Of a DNA stretch of 33,766 bases, positions 12,830 to 16,449 are shown in pieces. A program made the translations under genes and the position numbers. The stretch is from NCBI RefSeq assembly GCF_024345495.1, contig NZ_JAGQBF010000028.1:1-33766 (forward strand). Reading direction: 5' to 3'. This stretch comes from Synechococcus sp. RedBA-s (GTDB taxonomy: Bacteria > Cyanobacteriota > Cyanobacteriia > PCC-6307 > Cyanobiaceae). The notes below the pieces were generated by a model. That model saw nothing but the letters and a program-made list of their open reading frames with translations, was not told the origin of the DNA and made no database searches. The number at the start of each line of letters is the position of its first letter. The stretch's first letter is position 1.

Positions 12830-13822
12830 TCAGAGCTGGGCGGCTCGCATCCACTCTCGGCGAGGATCACTGCTGCGGGCCTCACGCAACTGCTCCAATA
12901 ACTGGCGTTCTCCGTCGCTGAAGCGCTCCGGGAGCTTGAGGGTGAGGCTGAGCAGCAGATCACCACGGCCCTCCTTGATCGGCCAGCCCTTGCCCTTGAG
13001 GCGCAGGCTGCGGCCCAGGGCCACACCCGGCGGCACCTGCACGGTGGCTTCACCGTCGGGAGTGACCACCCTCACCTCGCCGCCCAGGGCCAGCTCATCA
13101 AGGCTGAGGGGCAGGTCAGCGCTGAGCTGATCGCCATCCAGGCGCCAGATCGGGTGGTCCTGAAGTTGAAGGTTGAGGTAGAGATCGCCGCGACGGCCGG
13201 TGCCGGGCTGGAGGTTGCCCTTGCCCTTGAGCCGCAGGCGGCTGCCACTGCGCACCCCCGCAGGAATGCGCACCTGCACCCGCTCCTCGTTGACGGCCAG
13301 GGTGCGTTCGCAGCCGCGGAAAGCTTCGGCGAAGCTGACGCTGATGGTGGCTTCCGCATCCAGGTTGAGGGCGCCACTGCGACCGGCCCCAGCCGGCCCG
13401 CCGAAACCACCAGCGAAGCCTGCGGGAAAGCCGCCGGAGAATCCGAAGCCGCCAGGGCCAGCTCCGAAACCGGAACCGGCCTGGTTCCCGCTGAAGCGAC
13501 CGAGCAGGTCGTTGATGAATTCGTCAAAGTTGCCGTAGTTGCCGAAATCCACATCGAAGCCGGGAGCTGCGCCTGAGCCCCCACCGGCCTGGCTCCAGTA
13601 CTGGCCGAACTGCTCATAGCGACGGCGCTTGTCGGGATCGGAGAGCACCTCATAGGCCTCACTGATCTCCTTGAACTTGGACTCGGCCGTGGCATCACCG
13701 GGGTTCACGTCCGGGTGGTACTGGCGGGCCAGCTTGCGAAACGAGCGCTTGACGGCATCGGCATCCGCGCTGCGCTCGACGCCCAACACTTTGAAATAGT
13801 CGCGGTAGCCGTTGGCACTCAT
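12830..13822 (-). CDS. DnaJ-class co-chaperone without zinc finger (CbpA/DnaJ2-like)
   Basis: The product has 330 residues. The J domain occupies about residues 5-75 and has the HPD tripeptide (36-38) that stimulates Hsp70/DnaK. It is followed by a long Gly/Phe-rich region (about 85-160, FGAGPGGFGFSGGFPAGFAGGFGG). The two beta-sandwich substrate domains then follow directly (VQVRIPAGVRSGSRLRLKGKG; later GVALGRSLRLKGKGWP). The CxxCxGxG zinc repeats of DnaJ are absent, making this a type II J protein. The open frame extends upstream to 14173, but the ATG at 13822 places the J domain at the N-terminus as usual. It is the first gene of the minus-strand run toward hemB, and divergent from the thioredoxin-like gene. 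Confidence 0.9.
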   Translation of the reverse strand: MSANGYRDYFKVLGVERSADADAVKRSFRKLARQYHPDVNPGDATAESKFKEISEAYEVLSDPDKRRRYEQFGQYWSQAGGGSGAAPGFDVDFGNYGNFDEFINDLLGRFSGNQAGSGFGAGPGGFGFSGGFPAGFAGGFGGPAGAGRSGALNLDAEATISVSFAEAFRGCERTLAVNEERVQVRIPAGVRSGSRLRLKGKGNLQPGTGRRGDLYLNLQLQDHPIWRLDGDQLSADLPLSLDELALGGEVRVVTPDGEATVQVPPGVALGRSLRLKGKGWPIKEGRGDLLLSLTLKLPERFSDGERQLLEQLREARSSDPRREWMRAAQL

Positions 13823-13958
13823 CGAGGCAAGCTCATCGGTTCGCGATGCAGCGCAACTGCGTTCCAGTGTCCCAGCCAAAGGCTCGAAAGGGTGGCCCCA
13901 GAAAGGGCGGAAGCCCGAACGCAGCCTTAACCTCAGGGCACCTGAGTCTGGGAGTTCC

Positions 13959-14441
13959 ATGCCTGACGCCACGTCCGGCCACCGGCTGCCCGCCCGGCTG
14001 CTTTCACTGGCGCTGATGAGCCTCAGCCTGGTGCTGGTGGGGGCCGCCGGGAGTAGCCGCAACCCGGCCCTCGCCCTCGGTGACAGCCCATCGGACAACA
14101 GCAGCGGCAGCCTCGGGGAAGCCGTGAGCCCCTCCACGGCAGAGCAGAAGGCGCTGGTAGAGCACCTGCGCACAAGGGGAGCGATTTTCTATGGCGCCTG
14201 GTGGTGCCCCCACTGCTTCCAGCAGAAGAACCTGTTCGGCACTGAAGCGGGCCGGCGTTTGCCTTACGTGGAATGCGACAAGGATCAGGCCGGGCGTGAA
14301 CGCTGCCAATCGGCAACGATCCGGGCGTTCCCCACCTGGGATCTCGATGGCGAGCGCCGTGAAGGCCTGCTCACCATCGAGGAACTGGGGGTCTGGAGTG
14401 GCTTCAAGGCCAAGGCCGAGGGCAGCACCGGCAGCCGCTGA
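13959..14441 (+). CDS. Exported thioredoxin-fold protein with CPHC active site
   Basis: The product has 160 residues. An N-terminal signal or anchor (LLSLALMSLSLVLVGAAGS, about 14-32) precedes a Ser-rich linker and a thioredoxin-like domain with active site WWCPHC (Cys83, Cys86) and cis-Pro motif AFPTW (about 124). The CPHC site and the following QQKNLFG resemble the thioredoxin domain attached to VKOR in cyanobacterial and plastid LTO1-type proteins; here it stands alone. It is probably a thiol oxidoreductase of the thylakoid lumen or periplasm, working with a VKOR-like partner encoded elsewhere (inference). Start: the ATG at 13959 gives a clean signal peptide and GGGAG lies just upstream at 13949-13953; the frame itself opens earlier. 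Confidence 0.82.
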   Translation: MPDATSGHRLPARLLSLALMSLSLVLVGAAGSSRNPALALGDSPSDNSSGSLGEAVSPSTAEQKALVEHLRTRGAIFYGAWWCPHCFQQKNLFGTEAGRRLPYVECDKDQAGRERCQSATIRAFPTWDLDGERREGLLTIEELGVWSGFKAKAEGSTGSR

Positions 14442-14452
14442 AGCGGAAATGA

Positions 14453-14887
14453 TCAGCCGAAACCGTAAGGAGCGGTGGTGTCGCGCAGGCGCTGGGCCAG
14501 CTCCTTGATCACCCCCTGCACAATTTCAGGATGATCGGCCATCAGGGCCTGAAGGGTGGCCTGCTCGATCCGGTACAGCGTGGTGGGGTCGATCGCGCTC
14601 ACTGAGGCCGAGCGAGGTTCAGGATCAAGCGCGGCCAGCTCCCCCACGATTTCGCCATCGTCGAGTTCAACCACAGTCTGGTCACCGATGTGGATGCGCA
14701 CCCGCCCGGTCACGATCACGTACATGCAGGTGCCGAGATCCCCCTTGGCAAAAAGCTGCTCGCCCGCCGTGAGATGCACATCCTCCACAGCTTCAGCCAA
14801 CTGGAGCAGCACCTCTACCGGCGTGGCCGCGAAAATACCAACGGTTTGAAGCCTCTGCAGCTTGTCGTGCGTGGCCGCGCTGGTCAT
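14453..14887 (-). CDS. Stand-alone cyclic nucleotide-binding domain protein
   Basis: The product has 144 residues. It is one CAP-type beta-roll: LAEAVEDVHLTAGEQLFAKGD, MYVIVTGRVRIHI, VVELDDGEIVGELAALDPEPRSASVSA, then C-terminal helices. The phosphate-binding cassette position reads GELAALDPEPRSAS, close to the consensus GE(L/M)ALL...PRSAT, so nucleotide binding is possible. The helix-turn-helix found in Crp/NtcA proteins is missing, so it is not a transcription factor by itself. It could regulate a partner protein by binding cAMP or cGMP, but no partner is evident nearby. The gene ends 11 bases from the convergent thioredoxin-like gene. Confidence 0.82.
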   Translation of the reverse strand: MTSAATHDKLQRLQTVGIFAATPVEVLLQLAEAVEDVHLTAGEQLFAKGDLGTCMYVIVTGRVRIHIGDQTVVELDDGEIVGELAALDPEPRSASVSAIDPTTLYRIEQATLQALMADHPEIVQGVIKELAQRLRDTTAPYGFG

Positions 14888-14967: not shown

Positions 14968-15183
14968 TCAAACTGGGGGCTCTTCCAGCTGGTGAGCGCC
15001 TGCGGAGCAGTCGGATTCAGCGAGGGCATGGCGAATGATGATCATCAACCGCTCGAAACCATCGCTGTCTTCGAGCCCTTTCCAGAACCACTGGGTTTCT
15101 GGATTGCGCTGCTCCACCAACTCCCTGAGGTCCGCCGGCAAGGCAGACCAATCGGGAAGGTGGGGCAGATCAGGGCGGCTCAT
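14968..15183 (-). CDS. Small hypothetical protein (71 aa)
   Basis: The product has 71 residues, starting MSRPDLPHLPDWSALPADLR and containing an amphipathic stretch LVEQRNPETQWFWKGLEDSDGFERLMIIIRHAL. No signal peptide or membrane segment is present. The amino-acid balance looks like a real soluble protein rather than a shadow frame, but no strong Shine-Dalgarno is seen and no family is recognised. It lies 14 bases downstream of the exported small protein gene on the same strand and could be the last member of that group. Confidence 0.45.
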   Translation of the reverse strand: MSRPDLPHLPDWSALPADLRELVEQRNPETQWFWKGLEDSDGFERLMIIIRHALAESDCSAGAHQLEEPPV

Positions 15184-15197
15184 GCCGGGCCGTGGGT

Positions 15198-15404
15198 TCA
15201 GCAGTTGTAGACGCCAACGGCACAGCGACGCACGGTGCGACGACCCACTCCGGCCACGCTGACGGGCGTGAGCGGGCGGCCGACGATGGCTTGTGCAGGA
15301 GGTACCAGGGCATTCAGGAGCTGACCTGGGAGGGTCTGCAGCGGGCCTGAGCCAGCCAGGGCGAGGGCGGCAAGGAGAGCAGCAGTCTTGTGGGTGGTGG
15401 TCAT
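15198..15404 (-). CDS. Small exported protein with a conserved-looking core and Cys-terminal tail
   Basis: The product has 68 residues. The N-terminal 39 residues are a Sec-type signal with cleavage probably after PPAQA. The mature peptide is only about 29 residues: IVGRPLTPVSVAGVGRRTVR followed by a nine-residue tail, with two Cys, the last residue of the protein being Cys (GVYNC). I recall small proteins with a VGRPLTPVS-AGV-RR core next to DUF2092 genes in Proteobacteria; that is memory, not a search. Its ATG overlaps the DUF2092 stop by four bases (ATGA), so it is probably co-translated with it. The function is unknown. Confidence 0.65.
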   Translation of the reverse strand: MTTTHKTAALLAALALAGSGPLQTLPGQLLNALVPPAQAIVGRPLTPVSVAGVGRRTVRRCAVGVYNC

Positions 15405-16240
15405 GGAGTTCCTCGTTGAACGAAGTGAGTGGGCAGTTCGCCCATGGACTTGATGGTCTTCAACTCATCCTTGCTGATGGCCCTGGCCCCCGGGGGTGGA
15501 ACAAAGGTGAAGGACTGGCCGACAGCCGCAGATCCCGTCTGAAAGTCACTGAGTTGAACGCTGTACCGAGGCGAGCCCGGTACCGTCGTGGAAGTGATTT
15601 CGTAGCGACAGGGGTAGGGGCGCTTTCCCTGGGCGATCCAGATCTGGAAGTCGACATCCTTTTTGCGGAACGCGAGGTGATCACACTCCGCGCCACCGAT
15701 CACGCCGCTGCCGAGATCCTTGACATCCGTGACGCCCTCGGTGAGCTCGGCATAGGCATTCGGCAACAACAGATCAGCCGCCGGCAGCGGTCTGCGGTAC
15801 TTGTCCTTGAGCTCATCCACCAGGGCGACGATCGTGCCCTTGAACGGAACCTGCATATAGACGTTGGCCTTTCTGCCCAGCAGTGTGAAGGTGGAGCCGT
15901 CAAAAACCGTTTCGACATCGGAGAAACCGGTGGATCGGGTGGCCCGGATGCGACCGGGGCGTGCCAGCGACACCGTTCCGGAACTGGCCAGCGTGAGGCG
16001 TTGCTGTTCCGTGGTCACGACATCCAGATCGGCGTCGTAGCGGAATGACATGGCCTGTTGGGCGCCCATGTAGGTGGTCATTCCCTTGAGCAGCGCCATG
16101 GCTTCAGCCTCAGCAGCCGTCGCACCAAGGGCCCCAACCACCCCTGTCGCGACGGCAACACAACCTGCACAGACCCCAGCAAAAAGGCTACGGGCAACGC
16201 TTGCCTTTATGAATAAATCTGTTATTCCTGTTGACATCAT
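15401..16240 (-). CDS. DUF2092 family exported protein
   Basis: The product has about 279 residues. An N-terminal hydrophobic segment (VARSLFAGVCAGCVAVATGVVGALGATAAEA) is a signal peptide or anchor. The rest is beta-rich: MSFRYDADLDVVT, GTVSLARPGRIRATR, DGSTFTLLGRKANVYMQVPF, DHLAFRKKDVDFQIWIAQGKRPYPCRYEIT. This matches my memory of DUF2092 proteins, predicted periplasmic proteins with a LolA/LolB-like half-barrel; no function is established. The ATG at 16240 is preferred because it overlaps the stop of the small upstream ORF (TGATG). A second ATG follows at once, and a GTG at 16243 is possible. The start of the downstream small exported gene overlaps its stop. Confidence 0.78.
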   Translation of the reverse strand: MMSTGITDLFIKASVARSLFAGVCAGCVAVATGVVGALGATAAEAEAMALLKGMTTYMGAQQAMSFRYDADLDVVTTEQQRLTLASSGTVSLARPGRIRATRSTGFSDVETVFDGSTFTLLGRKANVYMQVPFKGTIVALVDELKDKYRRPLPAADLLLPNAYAELTEGVTDVKDLGSGVIGGAECDHLAFRKKDVDFQIWIAQGKRPYPCRYEITSTTVPGSPRYSVQLSDFQTGSAAVGQSFTFVPPPGARAISKDELKTIKSMGELPTHFVQRGTP

Positions 16241-16449
16241 CACTCAGTTAAACCCAATTGGACTACGGCCTTGGTGCCAGCGGGATACCGCCCAAAGACC
16301 CGTAAACGGAACCTCCTCAGCTTAGGGCTTAGCCGAAGTGTGGCAACCACTGCGGAGAGGGCGAGGCGTGCCAGGTCGAACTCAATCAGAATCTGCCCTT
16401 CCAAATCTCCTTCAAGATCTCGGATCGTACTTTCAGGTGCTAACCACAC
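16240..16449 (-). CDS. Possible small ORF coupled to the DUF2092 gene
   Basis: This is a 69-residue frame with a GTG start and GGAAGG eight bases upstream. It reads WLAPESTIRDLEGDLEGQILIEFDLARLALSAVV, then a basic part PKLRRFRLRVFGRYPAGTKAVVQL. Its TGA shares a base with the ATG of the DUF2092 gene (TGATG), a classic reinitiation arrangement. The frame stays open upstream to 16509, so it could also be the 3' remnant of a longer broken gene. No family is recognised. Confidence 0.4.
   Translation of the reverse strand: MWLAPESTIRDLEGDLEGQILIEFDLARLALSAVVATLRLSPKLRRFRLRVFGRYPAGTKAVVQLGLTE

Follow-up and report, generated by a model that had tools for sequence, protein, structure and literature searches.

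A widespread and apparently undescribed pairing of DUF2092 with small exported proteins, present in its smallest form in Synechococcus sp. RedBA-s

Overview

The DUF2092 gene of Synechococcus sp. RedBA-s and the 68-codon gene that follows it are a true pair of exported genes, a pair that is widely spread and apparently undescribed, and of which the window (the whole stretch of 33,766 nucleotides analysed here) holds the smallest form. No description of a DUF2092–partner pairing was found in the literature covered, which included few subscription papers, in keeping with the possibly undescribed system suggested in a preliminary description of this DNA. Up to now, DUF2092 has been classified as a solitary relative of LolA whose role is unknown, and a usual partner gives the family a testable function, namely which part of the partner is bound and where it is taken. 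Moreover, the 29-residue mature form in the window is a minimal, synthesizable ligand for structural work. The small gene is unannotated in at least some records (e.g., L092) and, thus, the system is easily overlooked.

The Gene Pair in the Window

The peptide of the window (Table 1) combines a signal-peptide-like N terminus, in which residue 39 completes an AQA cleavage motif, and a mature part of 29 residues, IVGRPLTPVSVAGVGRRTVRRCAVGVYNC, which begins IVGRP as placed by the AxA motif and contains Cys at residues 61 and 68. The preliminary description had correctly read a signal peptide and a short mature part with a VGRPLTPVS core and a terminal Cys, while missing the upstream second Cys. 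Within the genus it is this upstream Cys that never varies, whereas a Tyr replaces the terminal one in genome G004. The start codon of the peptide is preceded by GAGGA. As judged from codon comparisons, this ORF is a real gene under strong selection. Nine cyanobacterial copies give an overall pN/pS of 0.26, with 0.37 for the signal part against 0.073 for the mature part, and the core (residues 41–60) shows a single variable column (G or A) among eight genus sequences. Over a 27-codon core, the window differs from Thiocapsa by 0 non-synonymous and 14 synonymous changes, from Pseudomonas by 1 and 18, and from Rhizobium by 2 and 17. The low pN/pS of the mature part and the mostly synonymous differences in the core argue against a chance ORF, and the codon-level conservation on which the preliminary description had made the 68-codon frame depend is present. 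The peptide is almost unchanged across Synechococcus/Cyanobium, Thiocapsa, Pseudomonas, Rhizobium, and Desulfobacula. In the genus, DUF2092 occurs in eight of nine genomes (the window's own and eight others) and the peptide in the same eight, G006 having neither of them.

Table 1. Features of the DUF2092 locus and its surroundings (positions in the window).
Feature	Position	Strand	Basis
DUF2092 gene, 278 aa, exported, LolA/RseB-like fold (model)	15401..16237	-	Pfam PF09865, AlphaFold, PDB matches
ATGA overlap of DUF2092 stop and peptide start	15401..15404	-	sequence
68-aa partner peptide gene	15198..15404	-	purifying selection and conserved pairing
Signal peptide, residues 1–39, ending PPAQA	15288..15404	-	cleavage inferred from AxA motif
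Conserved core VGRPLTPVSVAGVGRRTVRR, residues 41–60	15225..15284	-	genus alignment and comparison across phyla
CAVGVYNC, minimal two-Cys loop, residues 61–68	15201..15224	-	paired Cys in core-bearing relatives
71-aa ORF, 14 nt past peptide gene	14968..15183	-	found in 7/9 cyanobacterial loci
Cyclic-nucleotide-binding (cNMP) domain protein gene	14453..14887	-	PF00027 E 1.1e-19; conserved order
Upstream 69-aa ORF, judged non-gene	16240..16449	-	fragmentary similarity in 3/9 loci

Profile searches do not place the peptide in a family: Pfam at E up to 1 gives none for the window peptide, DUF6515 included, Pfam and NCBIfam give no match above cut-off for the peptide, its long variants, or the motif-bearing exported protein described below, and a sequence search against solved structures yielded nothing useful.

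Three frames chained by TGATG and ATGA junctions had been proposed. Both junctions exist and the DUF2092 and peptide genes are sound, but the 69-aa ORF upstream of DUF2092 is not a conserved gene and was rejected, since protein similarity to it is confined to fragments in three of nine cyanobacterial loci, in L013 across two frames; no Pfam family matches it. DUF2092 itself starts at an ATG at 16237, an alternative GTG being possible 6 nt upstream.

On the other side, the pair is followed by the 71-aa ORF and then by the cNMP-binding gene in seven of nine cyanobacterial loci, an order missed by the preliminary description. The 71-aa ORF has a pN/pS of 0.22 (six copies), shows early stops in relatives L015 and L018, has no match in Pfam, and is at most an accessory component. 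Convergent to the cNMP-binding gene lies a gene conserved in the genus (13812–14441, plus strand) for a WCPHC protein, whose thioredoxin-like domain was named by eye, the Pfam scan giving no match, and which might have a bearing on disulfide formation.

Family and Fold of the DUF2092 Protein

The window protein is a full-length member of DUF2092 (PF09865, COG3900), scoring 213.1 bits (cut-off 21.2; E 3.9e-63) over positions 1–210 of the 212 of the Pfam profile. Its AlphaFold model, built with 59 sequences, has a mean pLDDT of 86.6 and finds LolA, RseB, MucB, LprG, and LppX as fold matches in the PDB. Foldseek gives E 3.7e-11 against 2w7q, and the model aligns with 4mxt (Z 15.2, rmsd 3.1 over 179 residues), RseB 3m4w (Z 14.2, rmsd 3.9 over 186 residues), and MucB (Z 12.6), several LolA chains reaching Z of about 12–15 at rmsd 3.1–4.8 by VIA. 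By its model, DUF2092 is a LolA/RseB-fold protein, and a hydrophobic cup can be inferred from the fold. The likeness to periplasmic lipid carriers noted earlier is borne out by this model, its PDB matches, and the export of the protein. The assignment to the LolA fold agrees with that of PMC4520260, which, in the part of it available, treats DUF2092 alone as a LolA relative and leaves the partner gene unmentioned. Against the LolA equivalog profile, the window protein scores 17.5 bits, below the cut-off of 112.

Pairing of DUF2092 with a Downstream Partner

The pairing can be asked from the side of the peptide. A scan of 84,980 species genomes yielded 136 loci, the best 80 of which were kept; among these, all 41 loci matching to the last query residue (L012–L052) have DUF2092 directly upstream, two of them (L039 and L049) as a fragment only, which agrees with the strict pairing of DUF2092 and a small exported product proposed at the outset. 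A 4-nt overlap of the two genes, as in the window, is found in at least 19 of 39 rows for L012–L052, with starts picked crudely, and also in the annotated plasmid examples L093–L095; L053 begins inside the peptide. A tblastn search of plasmids detected DUF2092 in 141 records and the peptide (E up to 1) in 108, mostly of Sinorhizobium and Rhizobium. The occurrence of the same pairing in Proteobacteria, stated in the preliminary description, is supported, Thiocapsa, Pseudomonas, and Rhizobium being among the matches. Short peptides behind an apparent DUF2092 fragment were seen at L039:6777–7001, L143, and L049:965–1117, and Thiocapsa sp. KS1 carries two tandem DUF2092–partner pairs (L029:4413–8520), one of the short type and one of the long-core type (see the following section).

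Asked from the side of DUF2092, the pairing is broader. PF09865 was searched in 398 Pseudomonadota, 148 Desulfobacterota, and 60 relatives of the window, strong matches being those with E under 1e-30; the surroundings comprised 1.5 kb either side on both strands, and a partner was called by a VGRPLTP core or a match to a partner-tail profile. A downstream partner on the same strand is present at 19/20 places in Pseudomonadota, 6/7 in Desulfobacterota, and 11/11 in window relatives, 36/38 in total, and at none of the 38 places does a partner lie upstream or on the opposite strand within 1.5 kb. Since the centre genomes contained in these samples (G060 with two places, G063 with one, and the window with one) had been chosen through the peptide, they were set aside in a recount, which gives 17/18, 5/6, and 10/10 (seven of these ten belonging to the window's own genus), 32/34 in total. 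The two misses are L120, at a contig end, and L174, the first copy of a tandem DUF2092, which is directly followed by a VGRPATP gene when the core pattern is relaxed. Because the 12 tails behind the tail profile came partly from these loci, rows that supplied tails are circular; 11 places with a tail match and no core lie outside the profile (L118, L121, L124, L125, L127, L128, L129, L141, L173, L175, and L177). Ten weak PF09865 matches in the Pseudomonadota sample, dropped from the counts, have a partner in 0/10. L109, which belongs to none of these samples, has core genes on both sides of DUF2092: the upstream one also has a tail, and the other lies downstream.

A later sample of 386 cyanobacteria, from which eight rows with E over 1e-30 were dropped, covers 25 of 26 strong places other than L001 and L010, leaving out L250 with its internal stop. 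Here, a partner lies within about 1.5 kb in 20/25 (17/22 plus 3/3 further places). The five misses belong to one genus, and both of those that were extended show a tail gene, 1.6 and 3.0 kb downstream. Thus, the check for co-occurrence across genomes proposed in the preliminary description finds the association, but the pairing claim was too narrow: larger partners stand elsewhere, and at most places examined it is DUF2092 as such that comes with a partner.

Architecture of the Partners

Three partner types can be distinguished. Gly-type partners consist of a signal peptide, a Gly-rich linker, and a C-terminal module such as LPAGC..GVTYYSCG..WMQPSFGANGVYYRVV; the one in L112 is a clear DUF6515 member (E 4.5e-28) and the one in L113 carries PG_binding_1. 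In long-core partners, the VGRPLTP core leads into a module of this kind or, in most of them, into another tail with two Cys; the one in L098 scores 24.4 bits against DUF6515 (PF20125), just below the cut-off of 24.9. The short type, including that of the window, is the core with CAVGVYNC or close variants (CSVGIC in L122). The window peptide looks like a minimal form of the usual partner of DUF2092, a comparison in which CAVGVYNC is equated with the larger beta module by position, paired Cys, and intermediates, with no significant alignment. A further tail type, GGPVNRVGxR, is fused to a VGRPLTP or VGRPATP core in L109 (2154–2444) and L203 and stands without the core beside DUF2092 in L207:7558–7827, the modules being mixed and matched.

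The number of Cys in 89 distinct core-bearing mature sequences is two in 78, none in eight (one of which, L108, is cut by the locus end), three in two, and one in one; the L059 partner lacks Cys at both positions. A signal-peptidase-I type (AxA) motif is found in 108 of 113 core-bearing partner rows, with no Cys at the cleavage site. Because the Cys are paired and the mature N terminus follows a signal-peptidase-I motif, an intramolecular disulfide is the simpler reading, and core-bearing partners are probably closed by one, as far as their sequences tell. The same counts leave the earlier suggestion of a peptide anchored or modified through its Cys unsupported. The +1 Cys of a lipoprotein is absent from the window peptide, whose mature part starts, by the AxA motif, with IVGRP and has its Cys near and at the C terminus. 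The disulfide is not general, since Gly-type tails are often without Cys (4 of 12 profile tails have none).

The L098 partner, a long-core one, was modelled with nine sequences and a mean pLDDT of 64. Its core is disordered in the model (pLDDT about 42–56) and its five-stranded tail reaches about 88; the strand limits were read as placing Cys75 opposite Cys88, in register, on a hairpin. A fold search of the PDB with the partner tail gave no match at E 0.001.

Inheritance and Transfer

A tree of 81 DUF2092 proteins, built without four genus rows that are nearly identical, accounts for the three partner types with two changes, which is the minimum, in comparison with a mean of 31.5 after shuffling, none of 200 shuffles being as low. 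Partner type is, on this tree, co-inherited with DUF2092. The coreless group of the tree (17 rows) includes L110 and L120, labelled before any tail had been seen; the downstream gene of L110 is partner-like by eye with no profile match, and L120 ends with its contig. The short partner type forms one group (support 100/99), within which the short-type rows of cyanobacteria, six in number, make up a single clade (100/100) amid proteobacterial short-partner rows, next to Methyloceanibacter (99/95). This nesting of cyanobacterial copies inside Proteobacteria indicates transfer into Synechococcus/Cyanobium and, hence, the horizontal spread suspected earlier is supported. A record titled Mycobacterium sp. 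KBS0706 (L036) contains a pair of the short type, placed with weak support (87/53) beside a Pseudomonas copy, and it is possible that the record is mislabelled or contaminated. A profile from the linked clade gives core-linked DUF2092 at least 277 bits and other DUF2092 at most 266, and three later cyanobacterial DUF2092 with VGRPATP- or VGMPATP-core partners score 271–276 bits with the same profile.

The Core Motif outside the DUF2092 Context

A search for the core in 398 Pseudomonadota led to 14 examined places of signal-peptide type, four further such places being left out; eight of the 14 lie beside DUF2092 (one a fragment) and six do not. The four short CAVGVYNC-like ones among the 14 (L142, L143, L146, and L155) all lie beside DUF2092, L143 beside the fragment. 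Among the best 80 of the 136 loci of the peptide scan, 26 of Bradyrhizobium or other origin have the core with no DUF2092 nearby, the tail being longer in many of the Bradyrhizobium copies. The L057 genome (G066) has a core protein and no DUF2092 match anywhere, and the recurrent neighbours of such orphan peptides are Bradyrhizobium chromosomal genes, among which no DUF2092-like partner was recognised. Since the core occurs without DUF2092, its own target is not DUF2092, or not only DUF2092.

The core proteins without nearby DUF2092 in L055–L091, mostly of Bradyrhizobium, are exported VGRPLTP-core proteins that often have Ala/Gly/Tyr-rich tails ending in two Cys, and one cluster is situated near a GroEL-like gene. 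An unrelated exported protein of ~170–230 aa with the motif FSDRP or FADRP...DPPNA closes with a motif almost identical to that core (FIDIIGRPLTPLSFAGVARR), in some cases along with a tail bearing two Cys. It occurs in L022:163–1077, L156:847–1584, L158:913–1689, L206:5886–6542, and L207:4064–4738, in L022, L206, and L207 within several kb of DUF2092 or a core peptide, and two of these proteins scanned belong to no Pfam or NCBIfam family. As for DUF6515, two of 24 places in the Pseudomonadota sample are adjacent to DUF2092, and a third belongs to a genome that encodes DUF2092 on a different contig.

Gene Neighbourhood

In 28 of the 41 loci L012–L052, chosen by hand, the recurrent neighbours are DUF1254 proteins (8), MscS-type channels (7), a transporter-like protein (7), and arylsulfatases (5), each cluster being named from one scanned member and plasmid annotation. 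No literature was found on DUF1254 with arylsulfatase in a periplasmic context. The annotated order "adenylate cyclase", DUF2092, peptide, and alpha/beta hydrolase is found in six of nine rhizobial plasmid regions; it is absent in two, and in one the stretch between the two outer genes yielded only the peptide. The L045 protein at the "adenylate cyclase" position, the one protein scanned and equated with the annotated cyclases by place and similarity, shows only TPR repeats (Pfam, E 0.01). A cAMP circuit joining the rhizobial "adenylate cyclase" and the cNMP-binding gene of the window was considered and is weakened, the two neighbours belonging to different phyla. Across ten plasmid regions, whose gene table is incomplete, no sigma or anti-sigma factor is annotated, and no export or modification gene recurs.

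Possible Function of the Pair

The reading favoured here, in which our confidence falls a little short of even, is that DUF2092 and its downstream gene form a dedicated periplasmic pair, in which DUF2092 carries or chaperones a non-lipidated partner to the cell envelope. The exported partner would have two parts, an N-terminal module serving as linker or anchor and a beta module at the C terminus. Three kinds of linker occur in different lineages: a Gly-rich one, a Gly-rich one joined to a peptidoglycan-binding domain, and the VGRPLTP core, which is Arg-rich. DUF2092 would bind its partner directly and act upon it, recognising the C-terminal beta module or the minimal CAVGVYNC loop; this element is its likeliest target because most partners have it in common, the linkers are interchangeable, and the core is also found where there is no DUF2092. 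Upon export, the partner would be held in the periplasm by DUF2092, which would grip its C-terminal hairpin, and would then be handed over to the envelope; there its linker, basic or Gly-rich, would attach to peptidoglycan or to an anionic outer-membrane surface, the clearest hint being the peptidoglycan-binding domain of the L113 partner. Translational coupling would keep DUF2092 and the smallest partner in step. A bolder formulation, put forward more tentatively, is that of an undescribed two-part envelope system of cyanobacteria, Proteobacteria, and Desulfobacterota, in which a LolA-fold carrier serves a dedicated non-lipidated cargo recognised by its C-terminal beta hairpin and shrunk in one clade to a probably disulfide-closed peptide of 29 residues, which hardly changed in passing from phylum to phylum. 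If this were true, the window peptide would possibly be the smallest dedicated cargo of a LolA-type carrier.

The main rival to a carrier or chaperone is a sensor pair of the RseB/MucB kind, in which an envelope-tethered partner would be the ligand or regulator and DUF2092 would bind lipid or the partner and report envelope stress. The places of RseB and MucB among the best fold matches, the disorder of the conserved core alone in the L098 model (as expected of a recognition peptide), the MscS-type channels and DUF1254 proteins beside some loci, and a histidine kinase with response regulators about 5–8 kb away in one S. meliloti region fit this role. However, the window DUF2092 has no evident counterpart of RseB's small second domain, and the ten plasmid regions, with their incomplete gene table, show no annotated sigma or anti-sigma factor; a sensor is considered unlikely. 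Somewhat less probable still is thiol coupling, in which the Cys of short-clade peptides would exchange disulfides with C185 and C210 of DUF2092 (counted from the ATG at 16237) and capture the peptide covalently. Both Cys are present in 36/38 short-partner rows versus 3/14 long-core and 1/12 coreless rows, and the thioredoxin-like WCPHC protein is encoded nearby in the genus. Yet the short type is one clade and, thus, this association is in effect one event; two short-partner rows deviate at these columns (one C,R and one S,C), and the G004 DUF2092 keeps both Cys though its peptide lost one. The L032 and L048 DUF2092 proteins have one Cys each. In the model, C185 and C210 lie on strands two apart in sequence order; for this reason, and because the association is one event, their pairing is not claimed.

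An ordinary LolA-type lipoprotein carrier with an unrelated neighbour would agree with the modelled fold and with the LolA assignment in the available part of PMC4520260, but it is disfavoured, and held improbable, given the adjacent partner at nearly all strong DUF2092 places, the signal-peptidase-I type sites with no cleavage-site Cys in core-bearing partners, and a score far from that of a LolA equivalog. Least credible of all is an independent secreted effector or antimicrobial peptide with DUF2092 as its immunity or export protein. The peptide is indeed small, basic, secreted, disulfide-capable, and horizontally spread, and one region has an HlyD-type secretion gene some 3 kb away from the pair, while other regions contain ABC transporter genes. 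Against this, its mature sequence is almost invariant across phyla, unlike that of diversifying peptides; the same place is taken by larger partners that have Gly-rich linkers and, in one case, a peptidoglycan-binding domain; and no export or modification gene comes up repeatedly across the ten regions.

Comparison with Known Systems

DUF6515 (PF20125) resembles the partners through its member in L112 and the near miss in L098; however, the window peptide does not match this family, and in the Pseudomonadota sample the majority of DUF6515 genes stand away from DUF2092. RseB/MucB are LolA-fold proteins acting with a short periplasmic segment of another protein (RseA/MucA), and the DUF2092 pair is similar in the fold of its model and in its small exported partner, whereas this partner is a free secreted protein and no anti-sigma factor is annotated in the ten regions. 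LolA is the outer-membrane lipoprotein carrier and serves many lipoproteins. DUF2092 shares with it the modelled fold and export, but lies far under the equivalog cut-off, has a linked cargo candidate that is not a lipoprotein, and is paired with one small gene.
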